A stretch of DNA of 39,671 nt from Gemmatimonadota bacterium (GTDB lineage: Bacteria > Gemmatimonadota > Gemmatimonadetes > Longimicrobiales > Gaopeijiaceae), in assembly GCA_028874995.1 (NCBI GenBank), contig JAPPGM010000024.1:1-39671 (forward strand). Reading direction: 5' to 3'. Below the pieces are notes generated by a model. It was given only the letters and a program-made list of their open reading frames with translations, had not been told where the DNA came from and did not search any database. The position numbers and the translations under genes were made by a program. Positions 5,179 to 21,765 of the stretch are shown here, one piece after another; positions within the stretch are counted from its first letter, which is position 1; every line of letters begins with the position of its first letter.

Positions 5179-6897
5179 CTACCGGCGGATCCTCGTCCGG
5201 CGATCCACGAGCACATTGTCCGGCGGTTCCGGCCAGAACCCCACGTTGTGCTGCACATCGTGTCCCTTACGAAAGACCGTCACGTAGCACAAAGTGGTCT
5301 CATACCCGTTTTCAGCGACATCCACCGTGCCGCTGCTGGTCGACGGCCGGACCTGGATCGGACGATCCTCGTCCGCCCCCGCGGTCACGTCCAGAACCGC
5401 CAGCGAAGACGCCTCGAAGTCGCTGCAGATGAACTTCCCGGCACCGTTTCGTGAACGCCACCAGTGCAGGTCCTCGCCGAACACGGACGTGTGCCGCGAC
5501 CAAAGCGCGGACGGTCGCCCATTGATCGTCACCGGCACCCGCTGCTCACCCACGAACGAGGTCGAGTCGGCAGCCAGGTCCGTCACCCAGAGTCCCCACC
5601 ACTTCCCCTCGTTCTCCACCCCACTCGGCCCTTCCCGCAGCTCGAAGCGGTACTTGCGCCCTTCCACCCACTCGTACTGCAGCATGATCTGGTGGCAGCC
5701 GCACTCCTCGTTTTCCGGATTCACGAGCCCGTCCGTGCGAGCCGCGTTGGATCCCCAGATGGAGAAGTTCACGACCTTCCCCCACCGGTTGCGGTTGCCG
5801 ACGGTCATGTGCCCATCGGACTGGAATCCGGCATACCCGTAACCGATCGCGGGCGTGCGGTTCAGCAACTCGAAGTTGTACGCGTAGTAGTGGAGCAGAT
5901 CCTTCCTCCTGAGGCTCTCCGGCGGGTCGACCGCGGGAAGGAACGTCCAGGCCAGGATGTCGTACGCGGTGTCCGGGAACTCGTAGTCGGTGTAGGTGTT
6001 GCCGGGGCCCCACTTCCCCCGCTCCCGATTGACCGGGAAACGCGCCTCCACCGTGTGGTTGCCGGCCAGTTGCATCGGGTAGACGGAATCGGTGGAGAGC
6101 GTCGCATCGCCCTCGGTCCAGCGGCCGAAGTCGTACCCGGGGTTGCCCCGGGCGCGGAGCGTGACCGTGAAGACCTCATCCTGCGCGAGTTCCCAGGACC
6201 CCGCTCCGTCCACGGATCCTCCATTGGTCGGCCCGGACGCCGCCTCCACCGACCGTACCGGCGGCGGCAACACAACGGAAATCCCGGCCGTATCCTCGAC
6301 GTTCCCCGAGGCCGCAACCACGGACGCGCTTCCCAGGCTGACGGCCTCCGCAACGAACGACCCGGTCACGCGAACCACCGCCGTATCGCTCGATCTCCAC
6401 GAAAAGGCCGCATGGGCCATCGGTTGGCCGTTGGCATCGGCGGCCGTGGCGGCCATCGGCACCGAGCCCGCGGTGATCAGGCTGAACGCGGCCGGTATGA
6501 GGGAGATGGAAGCCACGCGTTGCTCCACGGTCGCCGCGGCGCTTCCCGACGCCTGCCCCGCGGTCGCAACGATCGACGCAACGCCGTTGGACTCGGCCGT
6601 GACGACGCCGGCCGGGTTGACCGTCGCAACCCCGGCGGCCGAGCTGGACCAGGCCACCGCCACCGACATCGCGTTGCCGAACTGGTCCAGCACTTCGGCC
6701 GTCATCCGGGCGGTCTCGCCCAGGGACGTCAACTCGATTGCCGCCGGGCTGACCGTGATGGTCGTCGGCACCGGGGTGGGGGGCGGGGGATCGACCGGTT
6801 CGTCCCCGCAGGCCAGGACCGCCGAGAGCGTCAGGGCAGCAACCGCGGAGCCCGGTCCCGCACGATACCGCAAGCAGTCCACCTTCCTTTGCATCAT
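5179..6897 (-). CDS. Big2-domain lipoprotein with a DUF3472-like C-terminus
   Basis: Protein of 572 residues. A signal peptide ends in a lipobox near residue 30 (LSAVLACGDE), predicting a lipoprotein. Two bacterial Ig-like (Big2) domains follow at about 44-125 and 127-210, each with the typical ATVNPAGVVTA / GVASIVAT style. A short repeat-type domain comes next (YDFGRWTEGD then HTVEARF, near 250-285), resembling InlB B-repeat/bacterial-repeat domains. The C-terminal 280 residues (GYGYAGFQSDG, VVNFSIWGSNAA, QYEWVEGRKYRFEL) look like DUF3472, a carbohydrate-associated family of unknown function; that assignment is tentative. The architecture suggests a surface or secreted adhesion or binding role. 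ATG at 6897 is followed by a second ATG. Confidence 0.8.
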   Translation of the reverse strand: MMQRKVDCLRYRAGPGSAVAALTLSAVLACGDEPVDPPPPTPVPTTITVSPAAIELTSLGETARMTAEVLDQFGNAMSVAVAWSSSAAGVATVNPAGVVTAESNGVASIVATAGQASGSAAATVEQRVASISLIPAAFSLITAGSVPMAATAADANGQPMAHAAFSWRSSDTAVVRVTGSFVAEAVSLGSASVVAASGNVEDTAGISVVLPPPVRSVEAASGPTNGGSVDGAGSWELAQDEVFTVTLRARGNPGYDFGRWTEGDATLSTDSVYPMQLAGNHTVEARFPVNRERGKWGPGNTYTDYEFPDTAYDILAWTFLPAVDPPESLRRKDLLHYYAYNFELLNRTPAIGYGYAGFQSDGHMTVGNRNRWGKVVNFSIWGSNAARTDGLVNPENEECGCHQIMLQYEWVEGRKYRFELREGPSGVENEGKWWGLWVTDLAADSTSFVGEQRVPVTINGRPSALWSRHTSVFGEDLHWWRSRNGAGKFICSDFEASSLAVLDVTAGADEDRPIQVRPSTSSGTVDVAENGYETTLCYVTVFRKGHDVQHNVGFWPEPPDNVLVDRRTRIRR

Positions 6898-6928
6898 CTA
6901 CCTCGAGAAGGCTTCGGCAATACCCGCG

Positions 6929-6981
6929 CCACCGCGGTCAGCCGGATCCCGACACCAAGCCGCCCCCACGAGAGGCAGGCC
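6929..6981 (-). pseudogene. Decayed fragment of a RidA-domain 3' end
   Basis: On the minus strand this short stretch reads, after one single-base shift, GLPLVG then RLGVGIRLTAVAR. It closely matches the last 22 residues of the triple RidA protein encoded at 3919-5136 (GLPLVGRLGVEIQMTAVVR). At nucleotide level about 37 of 45 aligned positions match the stretch at 3927-3980, with a one-base insertion in the C-run. It has no start codon, and only the C-terminal strand region survives, so it is called a remnant. It sits just upstream of the Big2 lipoprotein start, so it may mark the scar of a duplicated and deleted RidA gene. Confidence 0.5.
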
Positions 6982-7004
6982 GCGGAAAGATCTCTTCGCC
7001 CGGG

Positions 7005-7128
7005 GACCGCCGCAACGGCCTTGGCGGACCTTCGCGACCGAATCCGGTGTCTTGAAACCATGACGGGTCCATGGTAGCACGCCGCAACCCAACCGTTCTT
7101 CCTGAAAGACACGCTCACCCGAATCGGG
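7005..7128 (+). repeat. 124-base direct repeat, copy 1 (leader of small lipoprotein)
   Basis: This stretch is repeated in the same orientation at 7681-7804. Shared blocks in the same order are GACCGCCGCAACG, CCGAATCC, GTCCATGGTA versus ATCCATGGTA, CTGAAAGAC and TCACCCGAATCG. By eye roughly 70% of positions match, with a few 1-2 base indels. It ends 23 bases before the ATG at 7152, so it probably contains the promoter and untranslated leader. Confidence 0.75.
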
Positions 7129-7151
7129 ATCTCACACAGGAGAGCAGCCCC

Positions 7152-15126: not shown

Positions 15127-15522
15127 TCAACACCCGCAACCTACTTCGGTTCCCGCCTGGCAGACCTCTCCCTCGGTCGCGTAGCCGTCGCGCTTCCACC
15201 AGTCGAGTCCCCCCATCAGCTCGCGGACCTGGAATCCCAGGGTCAGCAGCTTCAGCGCGGTCTTCGTGGAAGCATTGCAGCCGATGCCGTCGCAGTAGCA
15301 CACGTAGAGCTTCGATTGGTCGAGCGAACCCGCGGAGCTCTCGTCGATTTCGCGGTGCGGCAGGTTGATCGATCCCGGTATGCGCTCGCGGGCGTACGCC
15401 TCGGCGGACCGACCGTCGATCACGACGACGGGCTCGTTTCGGGTGAGGGCTTCGTGGAGGTCCCATGAATCCGTTTCGAAGGCGAGTTTTGTCTTGTAGT
15501 GGTTCAGCTGGTCGATGTTCAT
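15127..15522 (-). CDS. Rhodanese-like sulfurtransferase with a cysteine-rich tail
   Basis: Protein of 131 residues, a single rhodanese domain without signal peptide. Family features are VVVIDGRSAEAYARERIPGS followed by INLPH (about 31-55), an active-site loop YCDGIGCNAS with Cys77 as probable persulfide carrier and a second Cys82 in the loop, and the closing GGLDWWKRDGY. The C-terminus is unusual: VCQAGTEVGCGC adds three cysteines in the last eleven residues. Upstream in-frame codons extend the frame to 15627, but the MNIDQL start at 15522 is the natural domain boundary. It is convergent with the SH3 protein gene and divergent from the DUF1684 gene. Confidence 0.87.
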   Translation of the reverse strand: MNIDQLNHYKTKLAFETDSWDLHEALTRNEPVVVIDGRSAEAYARERIPGSINLPHREIDESSAGSLDQSKLYVCYCDGIGCNASTKTALKLLTLGFQVRELMGGLDWWKRDGYATEGEVCQAGTEVGCGC

Positions 15523-15681
15523 GGGCCGTTCGGTTTTCGGACAGGGTTTGTGAGTACGAGATGCGTGGCAGATCGTGAGGCACACCAAGCAAAGATGCGA
15601 ACGATTCCCGCGGCAGAAAACCGCCACGAACGACTACCTGCCTGTATCCCGGGGCGCGGCGGCACCGAGCCGATCCGACGG

Positions 15682-15770: not shown

Positions 15771-16748
15771 ATGATCCTTCCGCTGCGGACCCCACCCTCC
15801 CCCCTCCCCGCCCTCGTGTTCCCCGTAGCCGCCGCGGTCATCTCCGCCTGCGCCGACGCCCCGACCCCCGACCCCCCACCCATCCCCCCCGAAACCCTCG
15901 CCGCCGAACACGAAGAGTGGCGGACCGGGCGCCGTAACAGCCTCGCCGACCCGGAGGGCGGCGTGGTGAGCTGGATCGGGCTGTGGGAACTCGCGGAAGG
16001 CCCGACCTGGTTCGGCTCCGACCGTACGCTTGCGATCGTGCTGCCGGCCAAGGACTCCCCTCCGCTTGCGGGGAAGCTCGACCTTGCGGGCGGTCGGGTA
16101 AGTCTGATTCCCGAGCCCGGCAGCGGGATCACTGTGCGGGACGGTGACCCGGTGACCGGCCCGATCGATCTTCAGGACGACCGCAGCGGGAACACGACCA
16201 TCCTCGACCTGGGCTCCCTCGGGATGCGCATCCACGCCGAACGGGGCACCGACCGCCTCTGGCTTCGCGCGTGGGACCGCGACTCCCCGCGCACCGCCGC
16301 CTTCGAACTGCCCCCCTACTTCCCCATCACCAACGAGTGGCGGCTGTCGGCACGGTTCGACCCCTACCCGGAACCCCGCGGCGTGCCCATGGCCGACGTA
16401 AAGGGCGGCACGGTCGAGAACATCGCGCCGGGAGAGCTGGTTTTTCGCGCCGGGGGACGAGAGCACCGCCTGATCGCCTTCGCCACCGAAAGGAGCCGCG
16501 ACTACCTCGTCATGCTGCGCGACTCGACGGCCTTCGCCGACACCTATCCGCTGGGCCGCTACATGCACGTCCCCTTCCCGGACGACGATGGCTGGACGGT
16601 GATCGATTTCAACCGGGCGTACAATCCGCCTTGCGCCTTCACACCGTTCTCGGTGTGCAGCTTTCCGCCGCGCGAGAACCGGCTGGCGCTTGAGGTGACG
16701 GCCGGGGAGAAGCGGCCTGAGGGGCCGGTTTACATTTCGATCCGGTAG
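15771..16748 (+). CDS. DUF1684 lipoprotein
   Basis: Protein of 325 residues. The signal peptide ends in AAAVISACADAPT (lipobox), then a Pro-rich linker. The body matches DUF1684: an N-terminal EEWRTGRRNSLADPEGGVVS with WIGLWELAEGPTWFG, a central FELPPYFPITNEWRLSARFD and GVPMADVKGGTV, and the diagnostic VIDFNRAYNPPCAFTPFSVC followed by SFPPRENRLALEVTAGEK. The family is widespread in Actinobacteria, Bacteroidetes and Gemmatimonadota but has no established biochemical function. The conserved C-terminal motif with two Cys is intact. It appears monocistronic; the next gene begins about 200 bases downstream. Confidence 0.88.
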   Translation: MILPLRTPPSPLPALVFPVAAAVISACADAPTPDPPPIPPETLAAEHEEWRTGRRNSLADPEGGVVSWIGLWELAEGPTWFGSDRTLAIVLPAKDSPPLAGKLDLAGGRVSLIPEPGSGITVRDGDPVTGPIDLQDDRSGNTTILDLGSLGMRIHAERGTDRLWLRAWDRDSPRTAAFELPPYFPITNEWRLSARFDPYPEPRGVPMADVKGGTVENIAPGELVFRAGGREHRLIAFATERSRDYLVMLRDSTAFADTYPLGRYMHVPFPDDDGWTVIDFNRAYNPPCAFTPFSVCSFPPRENRLALEVTAGEKRPEGPVYISIR

Positions 16749-16949: not shown

Positions 16950-18704
16950 ATGGCATCCCCCCCGACCGCAGCCGGACCCGGCGTCCGCTTCGAACCCGAC
17001 GAAAAGCCACCGTGGCCGATCGCGGCCGGACTCGCGCTGCAGTACTGCATCCTCGCGCTCGGTGGCGTCGTGCTCACGGTCGCGATCGTCTTCCGCAGCG
17101 CCGGGACCGGCGAGAGCTACCTGGCCTGGGGAGCCTTCGGGGCGCTCATGGTCTGCGGCCTGGCGACCATCGTGCAGGCCAGGCGGTTCGGATGGCTGGG
17201 ATCGGGGTATGTGCTCATGATGGGGACTTCGGGGGCCTTCATGGCGGTGTCGGTGGCGGCCATTCAGCAGGGTGGTCCGGCGCTGCTGGCCACGCTCGTG
17301 ATCATCTCGGCGCTCTTCCAGTTCCTCCTCGCGGGGCGTCTCTCGCTGCTGAGGCGCATCCTCACGCCGACGGTGGCCGGGACCGTGATCATGCTGATCG
17401 CGGTCAACGTGATGCCGTTCCTCTTCGACTTTCTGAACAACGTGCCGGAGGGGAGCGATCCCCTCGCCGCGCCGGTGACAGTGCTCTCGACGCTCGTCGT
17501 CACGCTGGTGGTCATGCTGCGCTTCACGGGTCCGGCCCGACTCTGGGGCCCGTTGATCGGGATCGTGGCCGGGTGCATCGCCGGCGCGCTTTTCGGCCTC
17601 ATCGACGCCGGGCCCGTGGGCGAGGCGTCGCTGGTCGGGGTGCCCGTGGCGGGGTGGCCGGGATTCGGTTTCGACTTCGGTCCCGCCTTCTGGGCGATCC
17701 TGCCGGCCTACACCTTCGTCACGCTGGTGGGCGCAATCGAGACGATCGGCGACGCGGTGGGAATCCAGCGAGTCTCCTGGCGCAAGCCGCGGGCCACGGA
17801 CTATCGCGCCGTGCAGGGGGCGGTGGCCGCCGACGGACTGGGCAACCTGCTCTCCGGCATCTTCGCGACGGTGCCGAACACCACCTACTCGAGCAGCGTC
17901 TCGGTCGTCGAGATCACGGGGATCGCCGCGCGCCGGGTGGGAATCTGCATCGGGGCAATCTTCTGCGTGCTCGCCTTCCTGCCGAAGGTGACGCAGCTGC
18001 TCCTCATCATCCCCGACCCGGTAATCGGCGCGTACGCGATGGTGATCATTGCCGTGCTGTTCGTGCTCGGGACCCGGATCGCCCTGCAGGATGGTATGGA
18101 CTACCGCAAGGCCACGATCATCGGGTTCTCCTTCTGGGTCGGCGTCGGCTTTCAGAGCGGCCAGATCCCGACCACGGGGCTGCCGCCCTTCCTCGAGCAG
18201 ATGCTCGCCAACGGCATGACCTCGGGGGGACTGACGGCGCTGCTGCTGACCGCGTTCATGGAGCTGTCCGGGCGGCGGCGCATGCGCATGCAGACCACGC
18301 TGCGGGTGGAGTCTCTGCCACAGGTCCAGCGTTTCCTGGAGGACTTCGCCGGACGCAGGGGACTCGGGGACGAGTTGGCGGGGCGGCTTGCGCACGCGGC
18401 GGAGGAGACGCTCCTGCTTCTGGTCGGAGAGGCGGAGGAGGACGAGTCCCCCGGGAAGCGACGGCTGCGGCTGACCGCCCGGGCCGACGCGGGCGGAGCC
18501 GAGCTCGAGCTTCTGTCCACCAGCGGCGGGGGCAATATCGAGGACCGCATGGCCGTGATCGGCGGGCACGTGGCCGAGGACCCGAGCGAACACGAGTTTT
18601 CGCTGCGGCTGCTGCGGCACCTCGCCACCTCGGTGCAGCACCACAAGTACGCAGATACCGATGTCGTGACCGTGCGGGTCGATCCCTCCTCACCGAAGGG
18701 GTAA
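16950..18704 (+). CDS. NCS2 (xanthine/uracil-type) permease with C-terminal RsbW-like GHKL domain, copy 1
   Basis: Protein of 584 residues. Residues about 25-440 form a multi-pass nucleobase:cation symporter-2 permease: GSGYVLMMGTSGAFMAVSVA, TPTVAGTVIMLIAVNVMP, and the substrate-site helix with E264 in GAIETIGD. The second substrate motif, normally QN-V-G in purine and uracil carriers, reads NTTYSSSVSVVEITG (from N310), so the usual Gln is absent. Residues about 442-584 form an extra cytoplasmic domain resembling HATPase_c_2 (RsbW/SpoIIAB class). A helix AAEETLLLLVG (483-493) sits where the N-box would be, GGGNIEDRMA (526-535) follows a strand, and FSLRLLRHLATSV precedes a final strand VVTVRVD. 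The Asn and Asp that bind ATP and Mg in active kinases are not evident. ATG 16950 follows GAGGAGAACCCGG. An identical-architecture paralogue follows 8 bases later. Confidence 0.88.
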   Translation: MASPPTAAGPGVRFEPDEKPPWPIAAGLALQYCILALGGVVLTVAIVFRSAGTGESYLAWGAFGALMVCGLATIVQARRFGWLGSGYVLMMGTSGAFMAVSVAAIQQGGPALLATLVIISALFQFLLAGRLSLLRRILTPTVAGTVIMLIAVNVMPFLFDFLNNVPEGSDPLAAPVTVLSTLVVTLVVMLRFTGPARLWGPLIGIVAGCIAGALFGLIDAGPVGEASLVGVPVAGWPGFGFDFGPAFWAILPAYTFVTLVGAIETIGDAVGIQRVSWRKPRATDYRAVQGAVAADGLGNLLSGIFATVPNTTYSSSVSVVEITGIAARRVGICIGAIFCVLAFLPKVTQLLLIIPDPVIGAYAMVIIAVLFVLGTRIALQDGMDYRKATIIGFSFWVGVGFQSGQIPTTGLPPFLEQMLANGMTSGGLTALLLTAFMELSGRRRMRMQTTLRVESLPQVQRFLEDFAGRRGLGDELAGRLAHAAEETLLLLVGEAEEDESPGKRRLRLTARADAGGAELELLSTSGGGNIEDRMAVIGGHVAEDPSEHEFSLRLLRHLATSVQHHKYADTDVVTVRVDPSSPKG

Positions 18705-18712
18705 CCCCGCCG

Positions 18713-20461
18713 ATGTCCCCACCGTCCGAAACCCGACAGGACCTCCGCTACCAGGCCGACGAGACGCCCAGCTATCCGGTCTCCTTCGGGCTGGCCTTCC
18801 AGTACATCCTGCTCAACATCGCGGGGATCGTCATTACGGTGGCGATCGTGGTGCGGGCGGGCGGCGGCACCGAGGAATACCTGACGTGGGCGGCGTTCGC
18901 GGCGCTGATCGTCTGCGGCATCACGACGCTGCTCCAGGCGAAGCCGCTCGCGGGGAGGATCGGAGCCGGGTACATCCTGCTGATGGGGACCTCGGGGGTC
19001 TTCATCGCGGTGTCGGTGGCGGCGCTGCAGCTCGGCGGCCCCGCGCTGCTGGCCTCGCTGATCGTGGCCTCGTCGCTCTTCCAGTTCGCGATTTCGTCGC
19101 GTCTGTCGCTGCTGCGGCGGGTCATCACCCCCACCGTGGCGGGCACCGTGATCATGCTGATCGCGGTGACGGTCATGCCGATCGGGTTCAACCTGAGCTT
19201 CCAGGCGCCCGAGGGAGCCGGGCCGGCGGCCGCTCCGCTCACCGCCCTGGCGACGATGCTGATCACCATCGTGATCGTGTTGCGGGCGCGAGGGGCGCTC
19301 AGGCTGTGGGGGTCGGTGATCGGGGCGGTGGGAGGCTGTCTGGTCGCGAGCGCGTACGGGATCTACAACATGGAGCTGGTGGGCGACGCGGCCTGGTTCG
19401 GGGTGCCGGCCGCCGGATGGCCCGGTTTCGATCTGCGTCTGGGCACCGAGTTCTGGGCCATGCTGCCGGCCTTCATCTTCGTCACGCTGGTGGGCGCGAT
19501 CGAGACGATCGGCGACGGCATGGCCATCCAGCGGGTATCGTGGAGGAAGCGGCGGGCGACGGACTTTCGCGCCGTGCAGGGGGCGGTCGCCGCGGACGGG
19601 GTCGGCAATCTCCTGTCGGGCCTCTTCGCGACGGTTCCGAACACGACCTACTCCAACAGCGTGTCGATCGTGGACATCACGGGGATCGCCGCCCGCCGGG
19701 TGGGCGTCTGCATCGGCGTGATCTTCATCGCGCTGGCCTTTTTCCCCAAGGCCGCGGCGGTACTTCTCGCGATCCCCGACCCGGTGGTCGGCGCCTACAT
19801 CATCGTGCTGATCGCGATTCTCTTCGTGCTGGGCGTGGAAATGGTCGCGCAGGACGGGATCGACTACCGCAAGGCCACGATCATCGGGGTCTCGTTCTGG
19901 GTCGGGGCGGGCTTCCAGAGCGGCCAGATACCGTCGGAGTACTTCGGAGAGTGGGCCGGCCAGCTGCTCCAGAACGGGATGACGTCGGGCGGACTCACCG
20001 CGATCATTCTGTCGGCCTTCATGGAGTTATCGGGACCGCGGCGGCGGCGCATCGAGACAAGGCTGAACGTCGAGGCGCAGCCGAAGATCCGTGATTTCCT
20101 GGAGGACTTCGCCGCCAAGGCCGGGCTGGGGGAGGAGATGGCGGGGCGAATGGGACTCGCGGCCGAGGAGACGCTGCTCGTGTTGCTGGACCAGGCGGAC
20201 CGGGACGAGGCGCTTGGGGAACGCAGGCTGCGGGTGACGGCTCGTGCGGAATCGGGTGGGGCGGAGCTCGAGTTTCTCGCCGCCACGGGTGAGGGGAACA
20301 TCGAGGACCGAATGGCTCTGGTGGGCGGACGGACGGCCGAGGTTCCGGTCGAGCATGACTTCTCGCTGCGGCTGCTCAGGCATCTGGCCACGTCGGTGCG
20401 GCACCAGAAGTACCACGATACGGACATCGTGAGCGTGCGGGTGGATCCGGTGGGGGCTTAA
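18713..20461 (+). CDS. NCS2 permease with C-terminal RsbW-like GHKL domain, copy 2
   Basis: Paralogue of the preceding gene, 582 residues, same domain order. The permease part keeps GAGYILLMGTSGVFIAVSVA and GAIETIGD. Its second substrate motif is NTTYSNSVSIVDITG, so the usual QN pair is again absent. Residues 443-582 form the GHKL-like tail with AAEETLLVLLDQ, GEGNIEDRMALVGG and FSLRLLRHLATSVRHQKY. GNIEDRMA, FSLRLLRHLATSV and the DTD-x-V-x-VRVDP ending are almost identical between the two copies, so this tail is under strong constraint. ATG 18713 lies 8 bases after the stop of copy 1; the two are surely co-transcribed and could form a heterodimer. The frame upstream of this ATG is only the shadow of copy 1. 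Substrate unknown. Confidence 0.88.
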   Translation: MSPPSETRQDLRYQADETPSYPVSFGLAFQYILLNIAGIVITVAIVVRAGGGTEEYLTWAAFAALIVCGITTLLQAKPLAGRIGAGYILLMGTSGVFIAVSVAALQLGGPALLASLIVASSLFQFAISSRLSLLRRVITPTVAGTVIMLIAVTVMPIGFNLSFQAPEGAGPAAAPLTALATMLITIVIVLRARGALRLWGSVIGAVGGCLVASAYGIYNMELVGDAAWFGVPAAGWPGFDLRLGTEFWAMLPAFIFVTLVGAIETIGDGMAIQRVSWRKRRATDFRAVQGAVAADGVGNLLSGLFATVPNTTYSNSVSIVDITGIAARRVGVCIGVIFIALAFFPKAAAVLLAIPDPVVGAYIIVLIAILFVLGVEMVAQDGIDYRKATIIGVSFWVGAGFQSGQIPSEYFGEWAGQLLQNGMTSGGLTAIILSAFMELSGPRRRRIETRLNVEAQPKIRDFLEDFAAKAGLGEEMAGRMGLAAEETLLVLLDQADRDEALGERRLRVTARAESGGAELEFLAATGEGNIEDRMALVGGRTAEVPVEHDFSLRLLRHLATSVRHQKYHDTDIVSVRVDPVGA

Positions 20462-20479
20462 GCAGAGTGCCACCGGGAT

Positions 20480-20508
20480 TTGAGATTGAGCGACGATGCA
20501 TTTACGAT
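20480..20508 (+). promoter_or_regulatory. Candidate sigma-70 promoter of the propeller lipoprotein
   Basis: TTGAGA at 20480-20485 (5 of 6 with TTGACA) and TACGAT at 20503-20508 (4 of 6 with TATAAT) are separated by exactly 17 bases. This lies in the 119-base gap between the NCS2 pair and the next start codon, suggesting the lipoprotein gene has its own promoter. Confidence 0.4.
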
Positions 20509-20580
20509 GGGCGCGTCGCTTCACCTGTTCACGCCGTAGAGATTGTGGGATCCCGGCGATCAACGAGGAGAAGAGCGGGC

Positions 20581-21765
20581 ATGAATGGTCGGTCCTCGCG
20601 AAGATGGGTCTCGTTACTCGGGCTCGTGCTCTGCCCAGCGTGTTCCGAGCGTGGCGAACACCGTGTTGAGGCGCCGACCCCGACGCCGCTCGGTCCCCCA
20701 AACGCCGTGTTTCCGGAAGACTTCGGCTTTGTCCACGCGGTGCGGGAGCTCTCGGGGGGTCACGTCCTGGTTCCGGATCCCCTCGGCGAAGCGCTTTACC
20801 GGGTGGATATGGACACCGGAGTGCGCACCGTGATCGGGAGGCTGGGCGAGGGGCCTGAAGAGTACCGACAGCCCGACGCCGTGTGGCCATTGCCTGGGGA
20901 TTCGACGTTGTTTGTGGACCTTGGCAACGGCCGCCTGGTGAGACTGGGCCCTGACCTGGAGTTCGGGCAGACATATCCGATTGCAAGACCACAGTATGAT
21001 GGGGGCTTCGTCATGGCGCTTCCGGCCGGAGTTGACCGTGGCGGGAATGTCTACGCCGCCGGGCTGGGCAGCTACCCGCCCGACCCCGAAGGCCGCGGCA
21101 CTATCCTCCGCATTGACCCGGCAACGGGATCGGTGGATACCGTGGGCAGCTACAAGCTCAACGACGTAGTGGTCGAAGAGTCGGAAAACAACATCAGCAT
21201 CATGCCGATTCCGCTGTCTCCCGCCGACGCCTGGGGGGTCGCGGGCGACGGGTCGGTCGTGGTGGCCCGCTCGGTGGGATACGGCGTGGACTGGTACGCG
21301 CCGGACGGCCCGATGACCCGCGGGGATACCGTCGCCTACGACCCCATCCCCATTACGGTGTCCGAGAAGGCGGAGTATTTCCGGGACAGGCGCCGTCAGG
21401 CCGAAGTAGGCATGGGCATAACGACTTCTTCGGAGGGACAAACGACTGCGACCTTTTTCCGCGGCAGTTCCGGTAGTTCGGAGGAACCGGACTATGACAG
21501 CTATCGTTGGCCAGACGAAAAGCCCGCGTTACAGTCGATCACCGTCAGGGTCGATCCACGCGGCCGCGCGTGGGTGCGGCGTCATGTGCCCGCAGGTAGC
21601 GGCACCACTTACGACCTGTTCGACCGCGACGGGACTCTGTTGGAACAGGTCACGCTGGATGGGGATCGGCGCGTTGCCGGATTTGGCCCCGAATCGGTGT
21701 ATATGATCGCGTTCGATGACCTGGACCTTGCGTATCTCGAAAGGTACGCGTTGCCGGACGATTGA
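20581..21765 (+). CDS. 6-bladed beta-propeller lipoprotein
   Basis: Protein of 394 residues. The signal sequence ends in LLGLVLCPACSER, a lipobox. The rest has the repeated blade pattern of 6-bladed propeller (NHL-like) proteins: GGHVLVPDPLGEALYRVDMD, DSTLFVDLGNGRLVRLGPD, GNVYAAGLG with TILRIDPATG, GDGSVVVARSVGYGVDWYAP, and the final VDPRGRAWVRRHVP with YDLFDRDGTLLEQV. ATG 20581 is preceded by CGAGGAGAAGAGCGGGC, a strong ribosome binding site, so the open frame back to a GTG at 20467 is not used. Such lipoproteins are numerous in this kind of genome; the ligand is unknown. Its stop overlaps an alternative TTG of the next gene. Confidence 0.85.
   Translation: MNGRSSRRWVSLLGLVLCPACSERGEHRVEAPTPTPLGPPNAVFPEDFGFVHAVRELSGGHVLVPDPLGEALYRVDMDTGVRTVIGRLGEGPEEYRQPDAVWPLPGDSTLFVDLGNGRLVRLGPDLEFGQTYPIARPQYDGGFVMALPAGVDRGGNVYAAGLGSYPPDPEGRGTILRIDPATGSVDTVGSYKLNDVVVEESENNISIMPIPLSPADAWGVAGDGSVVVARSVGYGVDWYAPDGPMTRGDTVAYDPIPITVSEKAEYFRDRRRQAEVGMGITTSSEGQTTATFFRGSSGSSEEPDYDSYRWPDEKPALQSITVRVDPRGRAWVRRHVPAGSGTTYDLFDRDGTLLEQVTLDGDRRVAGFGPESVYMIAFDDLDLAYLERYALPDD

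Follow-up and report, generated by a model that had tools for sequence, protein, structure and literature searches.

An apparently undescribed bacterial domain architecture: NCS2-fold permeases with a predicted pseudo-RsbW tail

The known transporter fusions related to the RsbV/RsbW protein pair carry the STAS half of that pair on SulP proteins and, to our knowledge, few bacterial transporters also act as sensors. Here we analysed two adjacent genes in a 39,671-nucleotide stretch of a Gemmatimonadota bacterium (contig JAPPGM010000024.1, assembly GCA_028874995.1; this whole stretch is referred to as the window). Their products resemble SulP/SLC26 proteins with a C-terminal STAS domain in belonging to the same 7+7 transmembrane helix (TM) elevator fold class and in ending in a cytoplasmic domain from the RsbV/RsbW partner pair. 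In contrast to SulP/SLC26, the window permeases are of the SLC23/NCS2 type and their tail is, according to structure prediction, the other half of the pair, a pseudo-RsbW domain rather than STAS, for which a Pfam scan of both permeases gave no match. The permease part finds its best structural and sequence match in UapA, UraA and XanQ (NAT/NCS2, SLC23), from which it differs by the extra tail and by an altered motif in TM10. The tail shares its fold and its order of strands and helices with the anti-sigma factors RsbW, SpoIIAB and UsfX, but lacks their ATP motifs, is joined to a membrane permease and has motifs of its own (N-I/L-E/Q-D and SLRLLRH). A precedent for a kinase-less RsbW acting by binding is RsbW3 of Mycobacterium smegmatis, which showed no kinase activity on RsfB and was proposed to be an anti-SigF antagonist by binding (PMC7693655); unlike the tail, this protein is soluble and without transporter fusion.

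Gene pair and predicted fold of the tail

The original prediction of two adjacent paralogous NCS2 permeases, each bearing an RsbW-like tail, was borne out by the open reading frames (ORFs) and by Pfam. The features of the pair are as follows.

16950..18704, + strand: gene 1, 584 aa, NCS2-fold permease with C-terminal RsbW-like tail (ORF, Pfam, full-length AlphaFold2 model)
16950..18257, + strand: permease part of gene 1, residues 1-436, 14-TM fold
18270..18701, + strand: pseudo-RsbW tail of gene 1, residues 441-584, with model matches to RsbW, UsfX and SpoIIAB
18705..18712, + strand: intergenic gap of 8 bp
18713..20461, + strand: gene 2, 582 aa, second NCS2-fold permease with RsbW-like tail
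20033..20458, + strand: pseudo-RsbW tail of gene 2, E 4.6e-63 against the tail profile, of which this tail is a member

The two genes are likely co-transcribed, and their proteins share 63% identity. Xan_ur_permease (PF00860) matched residues 28-401 with E-values of 7.4e-45 (gene 1) and 4e-47 (gene 2). HATPase_c_2 (PF13581) scored 24.1 and 18.1 bits in the full-length proteins against a Pfam gathering score of 27.4, which may explain why the tail has gone unnoticed and makes it likely that standard annotation misses it; when searched alone, tail 1 rose above this cut-off (E 1.3e-6, 28.8 bits) and tail 2 stayed below it (E 1.3e-4, 22.4 bits). The strings GNIEDRMA and FSLRLLRHLATSV, previously described as alike in the two tails, were indeed found in both. 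As the same tail occurs on 10 paralogues of the genome and on hundreds of relatives elsewhere, chance can be excluded as the origin of this architecture; the pair is thus real, but represents two of ten family members of its genome and not an isolated oddity.

The tail was modelled with AlphaFold2 using 54 diverse tails (predicted local distance difference test, pLDDT, 81; predicted template modelling score 0.77), giving a secondary-structure order of E-H-H-E-E-H-H-E-E, while the former ATP-lid at tail residues 101-110 was poorly modelled (pLDDT <50). All 18 Foldseek matches of this model in the PDB at E<0.001 were UsfX, RsbW or SpoIIAB, and VIA-align placed RsbW (6m37_C) first with a Z-score of 16.2 (root-mean-square deviation 2.2 over 113 residues), followed by UsfX (15.9), SpoIIAB (14.4) and, next, histidine kinases at about 8. 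Profile-profile alignment (hhalign) of the tail to 12 bona fide RsbW-type proteins drawn from the same tail-bearing genomes was likewise significant (Prob 94.5, E 7.7e-8). Since searching PDB sequences with the profile of the tails returned chance matches only (best E 0.088), the fold was taken from structure prediction, by which the tail is an alpha/beta GHKL/Bergerat domain of the RsbW type, as had been proposed and as the HATPase_c_2 match of tail 1 also indicates.

Degeneration of the ATP site and of the permease signature

Alignment of the tail to true RsbW-type proteins with hhalign located the former nucleotide-binding boxes in tail 1.

18384..18422, + strand: former N-box, RLAHAAEETLLLL, with Leu in place of Asn
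18498..18554, + strand: former G1 box, AELELLSTSGGGNIEDRMA, Asp gone, N-I/L-E/Q-D conserved
18591..18635, + strand: former G2/ATP-lid helix, HEFSLRLLRHLATSV, Gly-x-Gly gone, a nearly invariant family motif

In the N-box, Leu stands in place of the Mg-binding Asn, the G1 Asp has become Ser or Ala, and the G2 Gly-x-Gly is absent; these residues are missing in 97/97 tabulated relatives, in agreement with the earlier remark that no Mg-binding Asn was evident. Judged from this motif loss, the tail is likely non-catalytic, which supports that half of the suggestion that it binds rather than catalyses. Residues conserved across tails comprise R40, E46, E47, N90, D93, the SLRLLRH segment and H125 (tail numbering), although the search itself accounts for part of the conservation in the G2 segment, as two of its patterns were drawn from this region. 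Among congeneric gene 1 orthologues, the ratio of non-synonymous to synonymous substitution rates (dN/dS) was about 0.15-0.32 for the tail and 0.05-0.17 for the permease, from which we conclude that the tail is maintained under purifying selection. Together with the residue conservation, these values rule out that the tail is a chance ORF extension.

The full-length AlphaFold2 model (pLDDT 84) matched UapA, UraA and SVCT1, then SLC26, with Foldseek E-values of 5.6e-17 for UapA and 1.1e-15 for UraA, and about 4 residues separate TM14 from the tail. Two segments of gene 1 are informative with regard to the substrate.

17739..17753, + strand: 'ETIGD' in TM8, Glu and Asp aligned with the E..D of UapA and retained (alignment)
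17880..17921, + strand: TTYSSSVSVVEITG in TM10, NAT signature (TTFAQNNGVIALTR in UapA) lost (alignment, 97-sequence table)

The Glu and Asp of TM8 are retained in most copies and thus mostly shared with UapA, UraA and XanQ; the Glu is also lost in five paralogues of the same genome (contigs C13, C80, C103, C164 and C191). The NAT signature [Q/E/P]-N-x-G of TM10 is absent, with TTYSSSVSV standing against TTFAQNNGVI in UapA: the AQNNG of UapA has become SSSVS or similar in the 97 tabulated relatives, so that QNxG corresponds to S-S/T/N-S-V/I. Scores for the NCBIfam models pbuX (200.9 and 218.3 bits, curated cut-off 414) and ncs2 (168 and 189.7 bits, curated cut-off 291.8) fell short for both proteins. 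As the substrate motif is missing, it would be unsafe to take a nucleobase as the substrate, and in sequence terms the permeases are not canonical nucleobase carriers; transport may possibly have been lost in some copies. The earlier designation as nucleobase-type symporters consequently holds for the fold and not for the substrate.

Recurrent neighbours indicating one substrate were not found around the tailed genes, whose contexts differ (DctM TRAP permease, Amt, amidohydrolase, carbonic anhydrase, class-III aminotransferase, SDR); a first neighbour clustering was swamped by shadow ORFs of the permeases. In four genomes of the class that includes a Dehalococcoidia locus (loci L201, L211, L212, L218), a carbonic-anhydrase-type gene and the tailed permease share a strand and are separated by 31-46 bp. 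At L068:360-5236, a class-III aminotransferase gene stands between two tailed permeases and overlaps the second, and a relative of this gene was found near the permease pair in other Gemmatimonadota loci.

Occurrence within the phylum and beyond

The genome of the window encodes 10 full-length tailed copies and, on contig C28, tandem stand-alone pseudo-RsbW proteins (L009:6179-6622 and 6635-7147, - strand), which lack a permease part and of which one has a single membrane helix at its N-terminus; several other species of the genus carry both of them as well. The tail was detected in 22/22 congeners (4-11 matches each), and in 49/395 genomes and 8/138 genera of the phylum. In a tree of 97 proteins, paralogues of the window's genome branch with different phyla and hence do not represent one recent local expansion, which rules out a single lineage-specific duplication as their source. 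We make no firm claim of transfer because of paralogy and mislabelled bins.

A scan of GTDB species genomes returned at least 549 relatives, a far wider distribution than the original prediction knew of. For the 78 top-ranking loci among these more than 549, the record titles name Gemmatimonadota, Pseudomonadota, Binatota, Acidobacteriota, Latescibacterota, Rhodothermota, Chloroflexota, Nitrospirota and Nitrospinota. Titles given to such bins at NCBI cannot be relied upon, as exemplified by RHO1_bin_70 (L065, L078), which is labelled 'Gammaproteobacteria' while its genome belongs to the window's own phylum, with contig coordinates at L065 identical to those of a genome of that phylum (G392). 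Independent clade searches nevertheless confirmed the spread, with the tail present in 28/245 genomes of the class of the Dehalococcoidia locus, 4/146 of the order of a Pseudohongiella locus and 1/198 of the phylum of the L105 genome. Hundreds of assemblies, single-contig genomes among them, contain the fusion. In 15 tail-bearing genomes, matches to the permease profile and to the tail paired one-to-one, fragments and contig ends excepted, and untailed NCS2 proteins were distant from the permease profile (E 7e-48 or weaker, compared with 1e-129 or better for tailed ones); within these genomes, the fusion is fixed in the permease subfamily. The tail was not found in PLSDB plasmids.

The 78 named loci belong to series of metagenome-assembled genomes (MAGs) that are presumably sponge symbionts. 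One series, jk18x, was obtained from Ircinia sponges (PMC9531527), and the others (SB06xx, RHO, APA, COS, CO36, ASG and others) presumably stem from sponge microbiome projects. As this picture is drawn from just the 78 top-ranking loci among more than 549, exclusivity to sponges is not established. Enrichment of xanP has been reported for marine Gemmatimonadota without mention of a tail (PMC11596202), and it is only a guess that these xanP genes belong to the tailed family. No published description of an NCS2 protein with an RsbW-like tail was found in the literature searched (open-licence PMC text), in line with the original statement that no characterised example was known. The NCS2-fold permease with a pseudo-RsbW tail is a real and widespread domain architecture that appears to be undescribed.

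Candidate function and rival explanations

Each gene encodes an elevator-type membrane protein of the NCS2/SLC23 fold with a degenerate RsbW domain at its cytoplasmic C-terminus, directly after TM14. This domain, presumably phosphorylating nothing any more, may serve as a protein-binding module, for which a STAS-type (RsbV-like) protein or a different component of a partner switch would be the most likely docking partner; either the permease would thereby signal its substrate occupancy to the switch, or the switch would gate the permease. Such an arrangement would mirror that of SulP/SLC26, in which the transporter bears the STAS half of the pair. Binding, docking partner and reporting or gating are candidate roles, and we favour a non-catalytic docking module linking permease and partner-switch proteins tentatively, at slightly below an even chance.

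Circumstantial support comes from genomic neighbourhoods, in which RsbW, STAS, PP2C and histidine-kinase genes occur occasionally. In 11 genomes picked for carrying tails, a STAS or RsbW gene lay within 4 kb of tailed genes in 4 cases against 0.24 expected (P about 1e-4, a rough value) and within 8 kb in 5 cases against 0.46 expected. At L158, L159, L160 and L162, tailed genes adjoin a whole module of REC/PP2C, RsbW, periplasmic binding protein, sensor kinase and STAS; the binding protein of the L158 module is Peripla_BP_6, and such modules recur in several phyla. At L198:1743-7772, which belongs to another genome, Pfam assigned a series of RsbW, STAS, REC/PP2C, soluble histidine kinase, tailed NCS2 permease and Amt, all in one direction, in which the permease start overlaps the kinase stop by 4 nt (GCATGAGC) and the Amt start codon follows 8 bp further; here, the permease occupies the place taken by membrane kinase and binding protein in L158-type modules. 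Several points weigh against this coupling. The distances of the linkage test were set after the first matches had been seen, L160 and L162 are arranged alike and perhaps do not count as independent cases, and the L198 operon is known from one 8.8-kb MAG contig. Full partner-switch modules were found within about 10 kb of just 5/94 tailed genes, few of the 78 named loci have an RsbW/STAS-type gene within 6 kb (L119, L124), and no such module stands beside the other sampled loci of the class of the L127 genome (Dehalococcoidia). No STAS, PP2C or partner-switch module was found near the pair in the window, and the linkage is absent in its genome. The linkage exceeds chance yet is sporadic, and the suggested coupling to a partner-switch cascade gained genomic support that most copies, including the window pair, do not share.

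The main rival, which we regard as unlikely though not by far, is a purely structural tail, in which a pseudo-RsbW dimer clamps two permease protomers and tunes transport without any outside partner. Transporters of the SLC23 fold act as dimers (PMC11362169), RsbW-type domains self-associate (PMC7340262), the linker of about 4 residues after TM14 is short, and most copies have no partner-switch genes nearby. However, ordinary NCS2 proteins work without such a domain, the genus conserves the stand-alone tail pair including the member with a membrane helix and no permease, and the above-chance linkage to partner-switch genes also speaks against a mere clamp. Less probable still is that the emptied ATP pocket binds a different, putative small ligand that would gate transport allosterically: the conserved polar residues E46, E47, N90, D93 and H125 lie at or near former catalytic positions, but the conserved G2 segment is in part affected by the choice of search patterns, and the lid region was modelled with low confidence. 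The RsbW fold would also suit a still-active ATP-binding kinase with unusual motifs, a reading that we consider highly improbable and rejected on the loss of the N-box Asn, G1 Asp and G2 glycines in every tabulated sequence. Stop codons or frame breaks in a few copies could be taken to mean that a duplicated permease family carries the tail as a dispensable passenger, or that the fusion is an assembly artefact; given the recurrence across assemblies, including single-contig genomes, and the purifying selection on the tail, this is close to refuted.

A broader version of the docking-module reading, which we consider rather doubtful, would be a large membrane 'transceptor' family common in sponge-associated bacteria: receptors or transporters of the SLC23 fold that report an outside solute to a partner switch via pseudo-RsbW, in some lineages replacing the sensor made of periplasmic binding protein and membrane kinase; the paralogues would differ in the solutes to which they are tuned and would be shared among phyla. 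A multi-phylum family with the RsbW half on NCS2-type proteins would have arrived at this kind of coupling independently and would test whether partner-switch proteins talk directly to transporters. Its abundance, with up to about 10 copies per genome in distant symbionts, would offer a concrete testable trait of sponge-associated life.

Among minor observations, Amt genes are likewise direct neighbours of tailed permeases at L110/L172, L123 and L213, and a GPP34 (Golgi phosphoprotein 3-like) gene lies between tailed permease and STAS gene at L161:7326-8003. In the window, a 432-aa ORF without Pfam match (20467-21765, + strand) begins 6 bp past gene 2 and is possibly co-transcribed, while a DUF1684 protein (15771-16748, + strand) and a rhodanese-domain protein (15127-15627, - strand) are encoded upstream of the permease pair.

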